Positions 30,589 through 39,803 of a stretch of 64,000 bases of DNA are shown piece by piece. This stretch comes from Natrialba sp. SSL1. Its GTDB lineage: Archaea; Halobacteriota; Halobacteria; Halobacteriales; Natrialbaceae. Position 1 is the stretch's first letter. Every line of letters begins with the position of its first letter. The position numbers and the translations under genes are program-made. Location: the NCBI RefSeq assembly GCF_001861355.1, contig NZ_MASN01000041.1, positions 1-64,000 on the forward strand, in the 5' to 3' direction. The notes below the pieces were generated by a model. It made no database searches and was not told where the DNA came from. It was given only the letters and a program-made list of their open reading frames with translations.

Positions 30589-32064
30589 CTACTCGGCGTC
30601 GAGATTCACCAGTTCGACCGCCGCGGGCACCGACTCGAGTACCGCCGCGGGCCAGCCCCGGTGTGCCAGCGTGAACTCGGTGTCCGGATTCGTCTCGACC
30701 AGCCGCGTCACACCGTCTGCAGCGGCCTCGAGTGCCGCACGATCAGTCCGATCCGGCACCTCGGCCGTGAGCGGGTAGCTCTTCGAGAGCGCCCGCGGGA
30801 ACGGGCCGAACGGTGGCTCGACGCGCCAGGAGTCGTCGAACTCGTCGCCGCGCGGCGAATCACCTTCCGTCAGGAGCAGCGAGTTCGGCACCGAGAGCCG
30901 GTCGAGTCGCTGGTGGTGTCGCAGCACCTCGGGTCGGCGCGCGCTCTCGTGGGATGTGTAGAAGAACGCTCCCTTCGAGACCGGATCCGTCTGCTCGAGT
31001 GCCCCAGCGTGATCGAGCAGTGCCCGGTAGCCGTCGAGCATCGTCGGGTGGGCGCGAGCGCGCTGCTCGACGAGTTCGAGCAGGGTGCCGGCGCGGATGG
31101 CCTGCTTGATCCGGCGGATTTCGGCGAACGTGACGTGGAGGTTGTGAGCGGCGAGTTCTTTTTCGCGCTCCTTGTCGGGAAGTTCACGGATGTCAGCCGG
31201 CGAGTTGGCGGCACAGACGGGACAGGAACACGGGAAGTACTCGAGGTCCTCGAGATTCCGAGTGCCGCGAACGGTGAGGTAGCGGTCGTCGCGCGCGTAG
31301 AGTGCATAGGCCGCGGAATCAAAGAGGTCACAGCCCATCGCAGCGGCGAGTGCGAACATCATGGGGTGGCCGGCACCGAAGAGGTGAACCGGTGCGTCGG
31401 CACCCAGGCCGCGCTTTGCGGCGGCGACGGCGTCGATTACGTCGTCGTAGCGGTAGTCGTTCATCAGCGGGACGACCGCGCCAACGGGGAAGACATCGAG
31501 GTCGGTCGCGTCGGCGTGACGGCCCGCCTCCTCCCGGAGATCCGGGTAGGTCGAGCCCTGAACGGGTGCGGTAACGAGCATCTCGCCCGTGTCGACGCCT
31601 TCGGCAGCGTCGAGGCGTTCCTGTGTCGTCGCGAGTTCCTCCTCGGCCCGCTCGCGAGGAACGTCCGGCGGCGTCGGAATGTCGACCGGCGTGCCGATAT
31701 CCGAGCCGATCGCGTGCTGGAACTCCAGAATCTCCTCCGTCGTAACGTCGATATCGCCGTACTCGGCGAGCTGGAACGAGCCCGAGTCGGTCATGATCGC
31801 CCCCGGGAAATCGAGCAGGTCGTGGAGCCCCTTCTCGAGTGCCTCCTCGCGGACATCGTCGGTGCCGTGGATGATGTAGGAGTTCGTGATGAGAATTTCA
31901 GCGCCGAACTCGTCGGCGAGCCGACGGGGGCTGATCGTGTCCAGATTCGGGTTGATCACCGGCAGGAGGGCGGGCGTTTCGACGGTGGTGTCGGCTCGCG
32001 GAACGGTCAGTTCGCCGAGCCGGCCGCCAGCGTCGGTCTCCCGGATTTCGAAGCACTCGCGCAT
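30589..32064 (-). CDS. tgtA: tRNA-guanine(15) transglycosylase (archaeosine, TgtA)
   Basis: 491 residues. [20 protein letters not shown] contains the catalytic-site Asp of archaeal TGT, and [20 protein letters not shown] the nucleophile region. The zinc site is [14 protein letters not shown] followed by a His in LAAHNLHV. It swaps guanine 15 in the D-loop of tRNA for preQ0, the first step toward archaeosine. The length fits the haloarchaeal form, in which the PUA-type C-terminal part is shorter than in Pyrococcus. It is upstream of nosDFY on the same strand but has its own promoter region. Confidence 0.94.
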
Positions 32065-32258: not shown

Positions 32259-32330
32259 ATTAGCGACGATTGCAGGGCTTCTAACTGCCATTTCCATCCT
32301 GACATGACTGAAACAGTCAGCTTGTTTTAG
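32259..32330 (+). promoter_or_regulatory. Promoter block of the first Asp-rich protein gene (duplicated)
   Basis: ATTAGCGACGATTGCA, TTCTAACTG, AACAGTC and GTTTTAGCC occur here and again before the second Asp-rich gene (35233-35304) with identical spacing: 66 bases from ATTAGC to TTTTAG, and 33 bases from TTTTAG to the ATG. The TTTTAG box sits where a TATA element of a leaderless transcript would be. Confidence 0.65.
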
Positions 32331-32357
32331 CCGCTCGCGTGGGGAAGCCCCGAGCGC

Positions 32358-34703
32358 ATGGTTTCACGATCACAGCAACTCGGTGTCGTTTTCGTGGCAC
32401 TCCTGGTCGCGCTGTCGGGGGGTCCTGCCCTCGCCGGCGGATCGGGACCAGCCGCGGACGACACTGAGGACGGAGACATGGGCGCGACGGTCGAGAACGC
32501 ACAGGTAGGGACACTCGAGTTAGACGAAGTCACGATCGAAGAGGCGACGATCGAGGAGTTAACTGTCGAACAGCTCGACGTTGACCACGAACAGCTTCAT
32601 GCGTTGCTTGGTGACGAGCACGAGGAGGCTGACGAGCCCGGTGTTGACGACGACGGGCTCGACGATGAGAACGGTATCGACGACGCTGACGACGAGTACG
32701 ACGACAACGGCGTCGATGATGCCGATGACGAGTACGAGGATGATGGCCTCGACGAGAACGGTGTCGAGGATGACGGTGTCGAAGACGACGAATACGACGA
32801 CAATGGCGTCGAGGATAACGGCATCGAGGATGACGAATACGACGACAATGGCGTCGATGACGACGGCCTCGACGAGAACGGCGTTGACGACAACGGTATC
32901 GACGACGCCGACGAGATGGATCACGTCACCATCTCCGATATCCAGATCGACCAGCTCGTTCTGACCGACATCTCCATCGAGGATGTCGAGTTCGAGCACG
33001 AGGACGAGCTGATGGATGAGGATGTCGAGGATGAGGCAGACGAGGACATCGTGGTCGACGAGGATGAGGCCGTCGACGATGACGGCGTCGACGACGATGA
33101 ACTCGACGACAACGGCGTTGACGAGAACGGTGTCGACGATGCCGACGAGTACGAGGACGACGAATACGATGAGAACGGTGTCGACGACGCTGATGATGAG
33201 TACGACGACAACGGCGTTGATGACGAATACAACGACAACGGCGTCGAAGACAACGGCGTGGAGGACGACGAATACGATGACAACGGTCTCGAGGAGAACG
33301 GCGTCGATGACACCGACGACCACGACCGCTTCGACGAGGACGCTGACGAACTCGTCGTCCAGGAGCTCACCATCGAGTCGATGACCGTTGCACAGCTCAC
33401 CATCGACGAACTCGTCGTCGAAGACGAGATTGCCGATGACGAGCTGGATAACGGTGTCGACGAGGAGGATGACGTCGAAACTGATGACGACCTCGTGGAT
33501 GACGAAGACGACGAACTGGTCGATGAGGACGACGATGAGCTGACAGACGATGACGAAATGACGGACGACGACGAGGCTGCTGTCGACACGGATGACGAGA
33601 TGGTCGACGAGGACGACGAGTTGGCCGACGATGACGAAGCTACTGACGACGACGATCACACCGGCGCCTGCTGCGGTGCAGCAGATGACGAGAACGGCGT
33701 CGATGACGATGACTACGACGAGAACGGCGTTGAGGACAACGGCATCGACGACACCGACGACGAGTACGAGGATGATGAACTCGACGAGAACGGTGTCGAC
33801 GACGCTGACGACGAGTACGACGACAACGGTGTCGAGGAGAACGGCGTTGACGATACCGACGACACCGAACTCGACGACAATGGCGTCGACGACACCGAGG
33901 AAGCCGTCCACGAAATCAGCCACCTCACGATCCAGCAGTTCACCGTCGACGAACTCACCGTCGAATCGATGACCGTCAGCGCCATCGACGACGAGATGGA
34001 CGACGGCGTCGAAACCGACGACGAACTCGAGGAGCCTGACGAGGAAGCAGCACCTGATGAGAACGACGACGAGTACGAAACTGACGAGACCGATGCTGCT
34101 GTCGACGACGATGACGAGGCAGTAACCGAGTGCAACGTCGAGGAGACTGACGAGCACGCGGAGTACGATGACGGCGCGGACCACGACGAGAAAACAGATG
34201 ACAAAGACGCTCACGATGACGAATACGACGACAAAGACGCTCACGACGACGAGTACGACGACAAGAATGCGGTAGATGAGACACACGACGACAAACACGA
34301 CGAGCACGCGGACGACGATCACACCGTGGAGAACGACTACGAGGAGAACGGCGTTGACGATGCCGACGAGGTCGATGCGAACGGTGTCGACGCTGACGAC
34401 GACTATGACGACAACGGCGTCGACGACAACGGTGTCGACGATACCGACGACACTGAACTAGACGACAACGGCATCGAGGACGATGAAACCGACGTTGACG
34501 ACATGGACGACGTGACCATCGAATCGCTCTCCGTCTCGTCGATCACCGTCGGTGACGCGACTGCTGACAGCTTCTCGGTCGGCGAAGCGACCGGGATCGA
34601 CGACTACGATGACGAACTTGACGACGGACTCGACGATGACGACGAGTACGACGATGATGCCGACTACGACGACAACGACGAAGAGTACGCACTCGCCGTC
34701 TAA
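32358..34703 (+). CDS. Secreted Asp-rich repeat protein with five pentapeptide-like blocks (paralogue 1)
   Basis: 781 residues. A Sec-type signal (GVVFVALLVALSGGPALAG, cleavage after ALA) is followed by five short blocks with a hydrophobic residue every fifth position: about 43-77 (LELDEVTIEEATIEELTVEQ), 187-217 (HVTISDIQIDQLVLTDISIE), 330-358 (LTIESMTVAQLTIDELVVED), 517-545 (LTIQQFTVDELTVESMTVSA) and 718-745 (VTIESLSVSSITVGDATADS). The blocks are separated by long DDNGVDD/DENGVDD repeats, like calcium-binding thrombospondin type 3 motifs (DxDxDGxxD). One CC pair (TGACCGAADDENG) is the only Cys. There is no membrane anchor at the end. I know no named family; Ca2+ binding at the cell surface is inference. 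Confidence 0.85.
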   Translation: MVSRSQQLGVVFVALLVALSGGPALAGGSGPAADDTEDGDMGATVENAQVGTLELDEVTIEEATIEELTVEQLDVDHEQLHALLGDEHEEADEPGVDDDGLDDENGIDDADDEYDDNGVDDADDEYEDDGLDENGVEDDGVEDDEYDDNGVEDNGIEDDEYDDNGVDDDGLDENGVDDNGIDDADEMDHVTISDIQIDQLVLTDISIEDVEFEHEDELMDEDVEDEADEDIVVDEDEAVDDDGVDDDELDDNGVDENGVDDADEYEDDEYDENGVDDADDEYDDNGVDDEYNDNGVEDNGVEDDEYDDNGLEENGVDDTDDHDRFDEDADELVVQELTIESMTVAQLTIDELVVEDEIADDELDNGVDEEDDVETDDDLVDDEDDELVDEDDDELTDDDEMTDDDEAAVDTDDEMVDEDDELADDDEATDDDDHTGACCGAADDENGVDDDDYDENGVEDNGIDDTDDEYEDDELDENGVDDADDEYDDNGVEENGVDDTDDTELDDNGVDDTEEAVHEISHLTIQQFTVDELTVESMTVSAIDDEMDDGVETDDELEEPDEEAAPDENDDEYETDETDAAVDDDDEAVTECNVEETDEHAEYDDGADHDEKTDDKDAHDDEYDDKDAHDDEYDDKNAVDETHDDKHDEHADDDHTVENDYEENGVDDADEVDANGVDADDDYDDNGVDDNGVDDTDDTELDDNGIEDDETDVDDMDDVTIESLSVSSITVGDATADSFSVGEATGIDDYDDELDDGLDDDDEYDDDADYDDNDEEYALAV

Positions 34704-34779
34704 CGCGAAAGAGGAGACGAAAGCGAAAGCGAAACCAAAACCGGAACCGAGACGAGAAACAACCAGCTAGACGAACGGC

Positions 34780-34800
34780 ACCGACCGCCTCTCGGTCGGT
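34780..34800 (+). terminator. Hairpin with downstream T-run
   Basis: ACCGACCG 34780-34787 pairs with CGGTCGGT 34793-34800 around a five-base loop, 77 bases after the stop codon of the first Asp-rich gene. CTATTTTTGACC follows about 20 bases later. Possible transcript end. Confidence 0.4.
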
Positions 34801-35232
34801 TCGCTGGTCAGTTATCGGCTATTTTTGACCACCAATCCGCAGCCAGTGTCCGTTCCTCTCTTAGCAGCTCGTCCGTGCGATAGCCCAACTGTACCCGCAT
34901 ACAGTAACTGTACCGCACACAGTATCCACACTGGTCGCACGACAGCTGTGCGATCTGTGTGGAACTAGTTGCAGTTGTTACTATATCCGTCCGCGAGTCA
35001 GGCCAACTGGCTCACGCTACTCGAGTACCATACCACCACCACTCATCACTGGAACAATCCGTGCTCGTGTCGGTCATCGATTGAGTACAGTCACCGGAGA
35101 GGTACTGACCGGCGGTAAATGAGTGGTTCCAATAATCAAGTGGCAGCCGCAGGCACAAACGCAATTCAGTTCAAACGGGTGGGCGAAATAGCCGCCGAAG
35201 ACGTAAACGAAATATGATATGATGAACGAGTG

Positions 35233-35304
35233 ATTAGCGACGATTGCACGAGTTCTAACTGGACTTTTCGGTACGATAAGCCTGTAACAGTCGGCTCGTT
35301 TTAG
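35233..35304 (+). promoter_or_regulatory. Promoter block of the second Asp-rich protein gene (duplicated)
   Basis: Same ordered elements and spacing as at 32259-32330, including TTTTAG exactly 33 bases before the ATG at 35332. This also decides the start: ATG 35332 rather than the in-frame ATG at 35320. Confidence 0.65.
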
Positions 35305-35331
35305 CCAATAGTAGGCGGTATGTCAGTCCGC

Positions 35332-36897
35332 ATGGTTTCACGACCACAACAGATCGGAGTCGTCTTCGTTGCACTGCTGGTCGCACTGTCGGGGGGTCCT
35401 GCCCTCGCCGGCGCGACAGCACCTGCCGCGCAGGACGACACCGGAGACATGAGCGCAACACTCGAGAACGTACAGGTTGGCACACTCGACCTCGATGACG
35501 TCACGATCGAGGATGCCACCATCGAGGAGCTAAACGTCGAGCAGTTCGACGTTGATGCTGAAGAACTCGAAGAGGAACTGGACGAGAACGACGAAGCAGA
35601 TGACGAAGAGAACGGAGTCGATGACAACGACGACGCTGCTGACGACGACAACGGCGTCGACGAGAACGATGAGAACGACAACGACGTCGCTGACGACAAT
35701 GGCGTCGATGACGAGGACAACGGCGTTGACGACGCTGACGATGACGCCGAGTCCGTAATGATCTCTGACATCGAGATCGAGCAGCTCGAACTCGAGGACG
35801 TCTCGATCGAGGACCTCGAACTCGATGAAGATGAGATGGAAGACGAGATGGACGACGAGGAAATGGACGAGGATGACGACGCTGACGCCGACGACGAGAA
35901 CGGTGTCGACGATGAAGACAACGGCGTCGATGATGAAGACGACAACGGCGTTGACGACAACGACGACACCAACGCGGACGACGAGGACAATGGTGTCGAC
36001 GATGAGGACAACGGCGTTGACGACAACGACGACGCTGACGACGAAGCGACTGACGACGAGTTCGATCTCTTCGACGAGGACGCTGACGAGCTGACCGTCA
36101 ACGAACTCACCATCGAAACCATGGATGTCGATCAGATGACGATCGACAACCTGGAGATCGAGGATGACGACGGTGTCCTCGACCAGATCGGTGACTTCTT
36201 CGACGGTATCTTCAACGATGACGACGAGAACGACGAGGCAGATGACGAGGACAACGGCGTCGATGACAACGACGACGCCGCCGACGATGACGCCACTGAC
36301 GACGACAACGGCGTCGACGACGAAAACGATGAGAACGACAACGGCGTCGCTGACGACGAAGACGACGCAAACGGTGAGGAACTCGAGCACCTGACCATCG
36401 AGCAGTTCGACGTTGACGAGGTCACCATCGACTCGATGACGATCGAGTCACTCGAGGAGGCCGACGAGGATGACACCGACGACACCGAGGCAGATGACGA
36501 AGACAACGGTGTCGACGATGAGGACAACGGTGTCGACGATGACGAGAACGGCGTCGATGACGAGAACGACGACATGGCCGACGAGGATAACGGCGCTGTC
36601 GACGACGAGAACGGCGAGGATGACGCAGATGACGAGAACGGTGTCGCTGACGACGAAAACGACATGAACGACGAGGAGACCGTCTCGCACGCGAGCGCAT
36701 CCTCAATCTCGATCGGCGACGCGACGGCAGAGACCGTCACGCTCGGTGACGCGTCCGACCTCGAAGACCTGACCGAGGAAGAGGACGAGATGGATGACGA
36801 CGATGAGATGGACGACGATGACGACACCGACGAGGACAACGGTCTCGACGACGACAACGACAACGACGACCAGAACTCCATCGCAATCCTGGGCTAA
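35332..36897 (+). CDS. Secreted Asp-rich repeat protein with five pentapeptide-like blocks (paralogue 2)
   Basis: 521 residues from ATG 35332. The signal peptide (IGVVFVALLVALSGGPALAG) is nearly identical to that of the upstream paralogue. Five blocks occur in the same order: about 40-71 (LDLDDVTIEDATIEELNVEQ), 142-170 (ISDIEIEQLELEDVSIEDLE), 253-280 (LTIETMDVDQMTIDNLEIED), 352-380 (LTIEQFDVDEVTIDSMTIES) and 452-476 (SASSISIGDATAETVTLGDA). The acidic spacers (EDNGVDDEDNGVDD) are shorter than in paralogue 1 and there is no Cys. The pair arose by tandem duplication including the promoter, with later change in spacer repeat number. Function unknown. Confidence 0.85.
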   Translation: MVSRPQQIGVVFVALLVALSGGPALAGATAPAAQDDTGDMSATLENVQVGTLDLDDVTIEDATIEELNVEQFDVDAEELEEELDENDEADDEENGVDDNDDAADDDNGVDENDENDNDVADDNGVDDEDNGVDDADDDAESVMISDIEIEQLELEDVSIEDLELDEDEMEDEMDDEEMDEDDDADADDENGVDDEDNGVDDEDDNGVDDNDDTNADDEDNGVDDEDNGVDDNDDADDEATDDEFDLFDEDADELTVNELTIETMDVDQMTIDNLEIEDDDGVLDQIGDFFDGIFNDDDENDEADDEDNGVDDNDDAADDDATDDDNGVDDENDENDNGVADDEDDANGEELEHLTIEQFDVDEVTIDSMTIESLEEADEDDTDDTEADDEDNGVDDEDNGVDDDENGVDDENDDMADEDNGAVDDENGEDDADDENGVADDENDMNDEETVSHASASSISIGDATAETVTLGDASDLEDLTEEEDEMDDDDEMDDDDDTDEDNGLDDDNDNDDQNSIAILG

Positions 36898-37193: not shown

Positions 37194-37748
37194 CTACTCG
37201 GCACCCTCCTGCAGCTGATAGTACGACACCGCAAGCGCCAACCGCCCATCGCGAACGTCGCCAGCCAGCAGGGATTCGAGTACCGTCTCGAAGGCAACGG
37301 GTTCGACGCGGATGCTCTCGTTGTGGTCGAGTTCCTGTTCAGCCGTTGGCTGACAGTCCTCGGCGACGAAGACGTGCAGGACGGAGTCGGCGATGCCGTT
37401 TGCGGGTTCGACGGTGACGAGTGGCTCCATGCGGTCGGCTTCGTAGCCGGTTTCCTCGCGGAGTTCCCGGCGGGCGGCGGCTTCGAGGTCGGTGTCGTCG
37501 GGTTCGGTACCGCCGACGGGGAGGCTACGATTGACGCGGGAGACGGCCTGTCGCCACTCGTCGATGCAGACGACGTCGCCGTCGGCTGTGAACGGGAGGA
37601 TGCAGACGCTTGGCGGTTCGGAGAGGTAATCGAAGTCGGTCTCGGTGCCGTCGGGCAGGCGAACGGACTCGTTAACGATATCGAAGCCCGGACAGGTGTA
37701 CGCTACCTCTCGGTCGGTGGTTTCCCAGGCGAGCGGATCGGTCGGCAT
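37194..37748 (-). CDS. NUDIX hydrolase (ADP-ribose pyrophosphatase type)
   Basis: 184 residues from ATG 37748 (MPTDPLAWETTDREVAYTCP); the frame to 37808 adds a doubtful leader. The NUDIX box spans about residues 95-117 with its core AARRELREETGY, preceded by the usual LPVGG. WRQAVSRVNRSLPVGG and the later ANGIADSVLHVFVAEDC resemble ADP-sugar pyrophosphatases, which hydrolyse ADP-ribose or related dinucleotides. It converges with the second Asp-rich gene. Confidence 0.9.
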   Translation of the reverse strand: MPTDPLAWETTDREVAYTCPGFDIVNESVRLPDGTETDFDYLSEPPSVCILPFTADGDVVCIDEWRQAVSRVNRSLPVGGTEPDDTDLEAAARRELREETGYEADRMEPLVTVEPANGIADSVLHVFVAEDCQPTAEQELDHNESIRVEPVAFETVLESLLAGDVRDGRLALAVSYYQLQEGAE

Positions 37749-37934
37749 ACCGACCGGTACGGCGCAGTCTGGCAAAAACGCGGCGTCACGGAGCGAGCGA
37801 TGAGGCACTCGAATCTATCGGGGGCTAAATCGGCGGACAGCAGGCTATGCAGTCCGTTCTCTGGCCTGCAGTGGTCGTACAGGCTCTATAACAAAGCCAC
37901 GAATGGATGAAGGTTGCAATTCAGAGGATGATCC

Positions 37935-38210
37935 ATGGATCAGTTAACCGGATTCCAGCGTGATTTGCTGTACGTAATCGCAGGGAAGGATCGACCGTCC
38001 GGCCAAGAGATTCTCGACGATATCAATCGGTATATCGACCAGCCGGTCACTCACGGACGGCTGTATCCGAATCTCGATACACTCGTCGAGAAAGAACTCG
38101 TCGAGAAGGGGCAACTCGACCGCCGGACGAACTACTACGCACTGACACCGAAAGGACGACGGATCTTACAACGCCGTCAGGAGTGGGTCAACCAGTACGT
38201 CGACGTCTAA
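37935..38210 (+). CDS. PadR-family winged-helix regulator
   Basis: 91 residues. LTGFQRDLLYVIAGKDRPSG, then LYPNLDTLVEKELVEKGQLD and NYYALTPKGRRIL are the PadR winged-helix landmarks. The C-terminal dimerisation helix is short, giving a minimal PadR like many in haloarchaea. A CTATAAC element about 50 bases upstream and a GAGG near the start give a normal expression signal. Its target is unknown; the 22-base tandem repeats just downstream (38281-38382) are a possible but untested site. Confidence 0.88.
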   Translation: MDQLTGFQRDLLYVIAGKDRPSGQEILDDINRYIDQPVTHGRLYPNLDTLVEKELVEKGQLDRRTNYYALTPKGRRILQRRQEWVNQYVDV

Positions 38211-39479: not shown

Positions 39480-39803
39480 TCAGTCTTCGTCTTCGCCGTT
39501 TTCGCCACCGTTGTCTGCTGTGTCTTCGTCCTCGTCGCCCTCGTCTTCGTCCGCACCGTTCTCATCCGCTCCATTCTCGTCGTCCGTCACATCGGTTCCG
39601 GCCTCTTCGTCTCCGTCCTCATCCTCGTCGTCTTCGTCTTCGTCTTCGATATCCTGCCCGTTTCCAGTCCCCTCTTCAGCTTCTGGTTCGCCATCCTCGT
39701 CTTCCGGTGCAGTGTCCCCACAGCCCGCGATGAGCATCGCCGAAATCGTCGCGCCAGCCGTTCCGAGTAGCCGCCGCCGCGTTTGGTCACGTTTGGTTGT
39801 CAT
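39480..39803 (-). CDS. Small Tat lipoprotein with Asp/Glu-rich tail
   Basis: 107 residues. KRDQTRRRLLGTAGATISAM followed by LIAGCGD gives an Arg-rich signal and lipobox, so the mature protein is about 80 residues on a lipid anchor. The rest is almost entirely Asp, Glu, Gly and Asn (DENGADENGADEDEGDED) and should be disordered. The NGAD units echo the NGVDD repeats of the Asp-rich proteins at 32.4-36.9 kb. It may be a surface cation-binding or spacer protein. Confidence 0.65.
   Translation of the reverse strand: MTTKRDQTRRRLLGTAGATISAMLIAGCGDTAPEDEDGEPEAEEGTGNGQDIEDEDEDDEDEDGDEEAGTDVTDDENGADENGADEDEGDEDEDTADNGGENGEDED

Follow-up and report, generated by a model that had tools for sequence, protein, structure and literature searches.

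The 64,000-nucleotide stretch of Natrialba sp. SSL1 analyzed here (contig NZ_MASN01000041.1, positions 1 to 64,000; hereafter the window) carries two tandem genes on the forward strand that encode predicted secreted, polyanionic proteins: an upstream gene, U, at 32358 to 34703 (781 residues), and a downstream gene, D, at 35332 to 36897 (521 residues; an alternative ATG at 35320 would give a protein longer by four residues). Both are defined by their open reading frames (ORFs), by relatives with the same order of sequence blocks, and by a tree of positional orthologues. A whole-genome search with the 521-residue protein returned U and D as the only two copies in this 4.58-Mb genome (61 contigs), and near-identical genes are present in Natrialba hulunbeirensis and N. 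chahannaoensis. Judged from sequence comparison, the two proteins belong to a widespread haloarchaeal family of predicted secreted proteins for which Pfam and NCBIfam have no model. Its blocks keep one order while the chemistry of their spacers is interchangeable, its tandem paralogues are old, and its genes have an upstream element specific to them.

Each protein starts with a predicted signal peptide of about 27 residues (32358 to 32438 in U, 35332 to 35412 in D, forward strand), recognized from its sequence and from relatives; the two sequences are MVSRSQQLGVVFVALLVALSGGPALAG and MVSRPQQIGVVFVALLVALSGGPALAG, and that of U is of Sec type by sequence, with neither a lipobox Cys nor twin Arg. 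An N-terminal hydrophobic signal is kept across relatives in the family alignment. Secretion, which the original prediction had claimed, fits this conserved signal peptide and is compatible with the existence of relatives rich in N-glycosylation sequons. Inspection of the window proteins revealed no lipobox, PGF-CTERM motif, or transmembrane anchor, and neither protein is matched by any Pfam or NCBIfam model. The mature 521-residue protein contains no Lys or Arg and has a net charge of about −246, and that of the 781-residue protein is about −367. The D protein closes with a hydrophobic C-terminal tip, NSIAILG (36874 to 36894, forward strand). Most family members end in a similar short tip (S-I/V-A/G-x-L), preceded by an acidic tail.

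Between these termini, both proteins contain five blocks whose repeat unit is a hydrophobic-x-hydrophobic-x-x pentapeptide, present four to seven times per block. Profile hidden Markov models (HMMs) of the blocks, built from a 33-row family profile (A1) and run on the ORFs of the window and related loci, place them on the forward strand at 32484 to 32588, 32925 to 33005, 33324 to 33428, 33909 to 33995, and 34506 to 34598 in U and at 35452 to 35559, 35755 to 35832, 36064 to 36174, 36376 to 36462, and 36670 to 36762 in D, where counts of contiguous pentapeptides in register are 7, 5, 5, 4 to 5, and 4 to 5, respectively. The pattern PhixPhixxPhixPhi (Phi, hydrophobic) occurs 20 and 22 times in the two proteins versus about 2 times in shuffled sequences (maximum of 10 in 2,000 shuffles), and the lag-5 autocorrelation of hydrophobicity in the 521-residue protein is 0.76 in blocks versus −0.11 in spacers. 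Family-wide, 2,225 of 2,522 pentapeptides (88%) match the register. The earlier description of near-identical signal peptides followed by five blocks in the same order, with a hydrophobic residue every five positions, therefore agrees with the ORFs, the block HMMs, and the shuffle comparison.

Block order is conserved far beyond the window. Among proteins with at least three blocks, 93 distinct relatives show the order 1-2-3-4-5 and ten show 2-3-4-5, some of the latter truncated by locus ends; one upstream copy (locus L023, 6663 to 9107, reverse strand) reads 1-2-3-4-4-5, with block 4 and its spacer duplicated, and the few remaining readings belong largely to divergent remote members, whose blocks are harder to assign with certainty. 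Across genera, the blocks keep invariant hydrophobic positions and block-specific sequences, while the length of a single spacer ranges from 11 to 182 residues among family members. This bears out the proposal that blocks are conserved while spacer lengths vary, with one correction: the values 781 and 521, first given as spacer lengths, are those of the whole proteins.

A single-sequence search found relatives in 100 of 125 Natrialbaceae genomes, covering 26 of the 29 genera. Class-wide, profile A1 matched 107 of 391 genomes, 25 of them outside Natrialbaceae; a second profile built from remote members (A4) matched 176 of the 391, a number on which we do not rely, as many of the extra matches, at 1e-4 to 1e-6, are weak and could reflect other domains. 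Remote members in other Halobacteria still contain segments resembling the blocks, and several have a CARDB/NEW3-like domain at the C terminus that scores below threshold. The remote relatives L153 to L168 have spacers rich in TTEE or in NET/NES, and some carry an extra helical-looking segment along with a CARDB-like C-terminal domain. No match to the family was obtained by tblastn against a plasmid collection, and no relative was found among viral contigs. Literature searches found no paper on the family, and the available text of the Natrialba magadii genome paper refers to proteins with repeats, the present ones not among them (PMC3403918). The claim that no described family has this combination of features thus stands within the scope of these searches.

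The spacers differ from the blocks in what is retained. In the window proteins they are rich in D(D/E)NGVDD-type repeats, as originally proposed: the spacers of the 521-residue protein contain 13 instances of [DE]NGV[DE]D (0.02 expected), and those of the 781-residue protein contain 24 of NG[VIL][DE]D (0.06 expected). Such repeats could be read as thrombospondin type 3-like loops folding around Ca2+ in a surface protein whose matrix is bridged by cations, since these known calcium repeats are likewise Asp/Asn/Gly-rich stretches of extracellular proteins and Asp-rich secreted chains generally bind divalent cations. The signature DxDxDG that marks thrombospondin type 3 repeats is, however, absent from both window proteins (0 matches), and the looser D.[DN].[DN]G occurs 3 and 2 times in their spacers, where composition alone predicts 2.5 and 3.0. 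NGVDD is also lineage-specific rather than family-conserved: spacers lacking NGx altogether occur in 52 of 113 family members, and a relative from the same genus (L020) has SNETNET-type, sequon-bearing spacers instead. Structure prediction leaves the spacers unstructured as well, although AlphaFold2 does not model ions. The calcium comparison is thus not supported by the sequences, and we consider a specific calcium-dependent fold improbable; the cation-specific or cell-to-cell matrix role first suggested is conjectural.

What varies instead is the chemistry of the spacers as a whole. Acidic residues make up 13 to 72% of the spacers across the family, and this content is inversely related to the density of N-x-S/T sequons (Spearman coefficient of −0.82 over 93 proteins, kinship ignored); the 16 least acidic members hold 283 sequons, against 54 in shuffles, and 57 of 93 relatives have no Lys or Arg at all from block 1 through the C terminus. 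Because acid content and sequons trade off in this way, NGVDD is lineage-specific, and DxDxDG is absent, the retained spacer feature would seem to be a long hydrophilic loop, rich in carboxylates or potentially bearing glycans, rather than a specific Ca2+ loop.

The blocks themselves look like pentapeptide repeats. Pentapeptide repeat proteins (PF00805/PF13599) form a right-handed quadrilateral beta-helix and include secreted examples such as Rfr32 and YjbI-type proteins. The family shares with them a period of five residues, two of them hydrophobic in each repeat, blocks of about four to five repeats, which is the size of one coil, and a weak similarity to Pentapeptide_4 once the spacers are removed: the excised blocks of a remote relative match at an E value of 3e-6 (27.6 bits, below the gathering cutoff of 38), and those of the window at 0.04, with no match from a shuffled control. 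One coil of the pentapeptide beta-helix consists of four pentapeptides (PMC8145042), and since each block holds four to seven, one block would correspond to roughly one coil. Strict membership failed, as the family has fewer than eight contiguous repeats and an Ile/Val rather than Leu/Phe center; its runs of only about 4 to 7 repeats are moreover interrupted by spacers, whereas loops in known pentapeptide repeat proteins are about 6 to 13 residues long (PMC8145042).

We ran AlphaFold2 on the 521-residue protein with 10 sequences and on a divergent, shorter relative (L053) with 9; the two runs are not fully independent because their alignments overlap. In both models, strands are continuous and confined to blocks (predicted local distance difference test [pLDDT], about 60 to 77), and spacers have pLDDT below 50. 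The 521-residue protein has strands in blocks 3, 4, and 5 only (residues 254 to 276, 349 to 376, and 449 to 471; pLDDT, about 64 to 77) and a helix at residues 283 to 295, corresponding to a conserved segment of LDQIGDFFDGIF type after block 3 that is also found in relatives (36178 to 36216, forward strand), and is otherwise of low confidence; L053 has strands in blocks 1, 3, 4, and 5. Beta structure, as proposed earlier, is accordingly predicted for the blocks with low to moderate confidence. A profile search of PDB sequences gave nothing meaningful (best E value, 0.17).

Several observations weigh against a solenoid built from these blocks. Neither model places a strand in block 2 and one of them has none in block 1, overall confidence is low (mean pLDDT, 43.6 and 46.9; predicted template modeling score, 0.25 and 0.34), and a Foldseek search of PDB with both models found no meaningful match. 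Covariation between blocks (mutual information with average product correction; effective number of sequences, 59) gives no clear signal either way, with 23 of 3,598 adjacent and 26 of 5,850 non-adjacent pairs among the top 60. Only 231 of 2,522 family pentapeptides (9%) strictly match the published pentapeptide repeat consensus, (A/C/S/V/T/L/I)(D/N/S/K/E/I/R)(L/F)(S/T/R/E/Q/K/V/D)(G/D/E/N/R/Q/K), and the central position is mostly Ile or Val. A rival reading is a beads-on-a-string arrangement, in which each block would act as an independent short interaction motif (for example, by edge strand pairing between molecules) on a linker that polymerizes with copies of itself or with surface partners. 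Up to 182 residues lie between blocks, a lone coil would be unstable by itself and might associate with coils from other molecules, the hydrophobic C-terminal tip is conserved, and U and D paralogues are paired in many genomes and could co-assemble. The strict order and block-specific sequences of 93 proteins fit an ordered intramolecular stack better, and we regard independent beads as unlikely.

The tandem genes sit in a conserved neighborhood. Across 46 loci, for which all counts are lower bounds, the archaeosine tRNA-guanine transglycosylase gene tgtA (30589 to 32064, reverse strand), on the U side, is a neighbor in at least 42; a NUDIX hydrolase gene (37194 to 37808, reverse strand), on the D side, in at least 35; and a gene for a PadR/RosR-like winged-helix regulator (37935 to 38210, forward strand) in at least 33. 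The regulator matches hsRosR structures (E value, 1.5e-17) and is 82 to 100% identical across the compared genera, mostly above 90%. One or two family copies lie between tgtA and the NUDIX gene, and in a tree of the blocks, copies on the tgtA side and those on the NUDIX side fall mostly into separate groups across genera. Position and tree together identify the tandem copies as positional orthologues at the site between tgtA and NUDIX-PadR, and the separate grouping suggests that the U/D pair is old. Loci L217 and L218 have a second copy elsewhere, accompanied by NUDIX and PadR genes, and in 11 of 17 remote loci the family gene adjoins, or lies very near, a gene for an M24 peptidase (methionine aminopeptidase-like), a location that is conserved but differs from that in Natrialbaceae. 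Also within the window, at 39480 to 39803 on the reverse strand, is a gene for a predicted 107-residue lipoprotein beginning RRRLLGTAG...IAGC, with a spacer-like acidic DDENGADENGADEDE tail; L023 has a similar gene (82%).

The neighborhood also bears on whether these proteins might be secreted decoys, that is, polymers that scavenge cationic molecules (antimicrobial peptides, heavy metals, or others), or precursors processed by proteases into peptides. Extreme negative charge with almost no Lys or Arg would suit such a role, and haloarchaeal secreted precursors that halolysins cut into antagonistic peptides are known (PMC12893001). The conserved neighborhood holds no recognizable partner protease or immunity gene, however, and the published precursor acts through an N-terminal alpha-helical peptide, whereas the family blocks are of strand type. 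We found no link to the halolysin-activated precursor HFX_0892, itself described as N-terminal alpha-helical. A decoy or precursor function appears quite improbable on this evidence.

Each gene is preceded by a copy of a promoter-like element that upstream alignment and genome scans indicate is specific to the family: AACAGTCAGCTTGTTTTAGCC at 32312 to 32332, 46 bp before the U start codon, and AACAGTCGGCTCGTTTTAGCC at 35286 to 35306, 46 bp before that of D (both forward strand). Its consensus can be written AACAGTC-N5-GTTTTAGC or AACAGTC-N5-GTTTTAGCC. The best-matching site falls 45 to 47 bp ahead of the start codon in 86 of 91 distinct upstream regions, and the AAC, TC, and TTTA positions are identical in all 86; a degenerate 20-mer with up to two mismatches is found in 80 of the 91. 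In the genome of the window, the element occurs at exactly the U and D sites plus one two-mismatch site, and across 125 genomes nearly all matches listed lie, by their coordinates, just before family genes, while a reversed control pattern gave one match in all. Three inspected sites have no family gene behind them (in G011, G022, and contig 20 of G044), and scanning upstream of three remote-lineage family genes did not reveal the element. A TATA box for a near-leaderless transcript could be provided by TTTTAG, which sits at about −33 to −28 from the start codon. A second upstream box in the alignment, ATTAGCGACGATTGCA-N4-TTCTAACTG, 99 bp before the U start (32259 to 32287, forward strand), has the same sequence at D (35233 to 35261, forward strand) and is less conserved among genera. 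The idea of an RNA leader was rejected, with upstream folding z scores of about 0 and only sub-threshold Rfam matches, and RosR was rejected as the binder, its published motif (TCGnCGACGAGnTCGnCGAC) being unlike the element (PMC4287449).

If the proteins were ordinary low-complexity acidic chains without a particular architecture, drifting as halophilic composition bias dictates, the free drift of spacer length and composition would be accounted for, and haloarchaeal proteomes are described as acidic (PMC3403918). That explanation is already contradicted by the invariant block positions, fixed order, synteny, paralogue orthology, and dedicated upstream element, and we judge it very improbable.

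We favor the reading that U and D encode secreted structural polyelectrolytes of the cell surface or matrix, in which polyanionic or glycosylated loops are borne by a small pentapeptide-like solenoid or block assembly, an interpretation we consider plausible and just short of probable. Within it, the block architecture is moderately supported. Each block would form about one coil of a pentapeptide-like beta-solenoid, the five would pack one after another, in their conserved order, into a single small solenoid, and each spacer would be a long disordered loop extruded between coils, so that a compact core may carry a brush of loops, strongly hydrated and either negatively charged or N-glycosylated, on the cell surface or within the extracellular matrix. 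At the level of sequence, spacer chemistry is interchangeable between lineages, either Asp/Glu-rich with NGVDD or arrays of sequons, and selection therefore probably acts on overall charge and hydration, not on a dedicated Ca2+ site. Each gene would be transcribed from its own copy of the conserved family element, a putative promoter. The more specific combination of a looped-out beta-solenoid with coils as distant blocks, long disordered loops swapping carboxylates for N-glycans, and a private promoter element conserved across the taxonomic family is one we advance tentatively.

In general character the family resembles haloarchaeal surface and matrix proteins such as the S-layer glycoprotein and perhaps halomucin: it is predicted to be secreted, is highly acidic, and includes sequon-rich members, and its distant relatives have the sub-threshold CARDB/NEW3-like C-terminal domains; the window proteins differ from such proteins in their lack of domain matches and of a visible anchor. 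If the favored reading is true, the architecture would be a solenoid that tolerates very long insertions at each coil. The replacement of acidic residues by N-glycosylation sites, and the reverse, in the same spacers would amount to a natural experiment, making surface protein hydration at molar salt directly testable. A conserved 20-bp element before one gene family invites a search for a dedicated regulator, in a secreted family that is common across most of Natrialbaceae and still awaits a Pfam or NCBIfam model.

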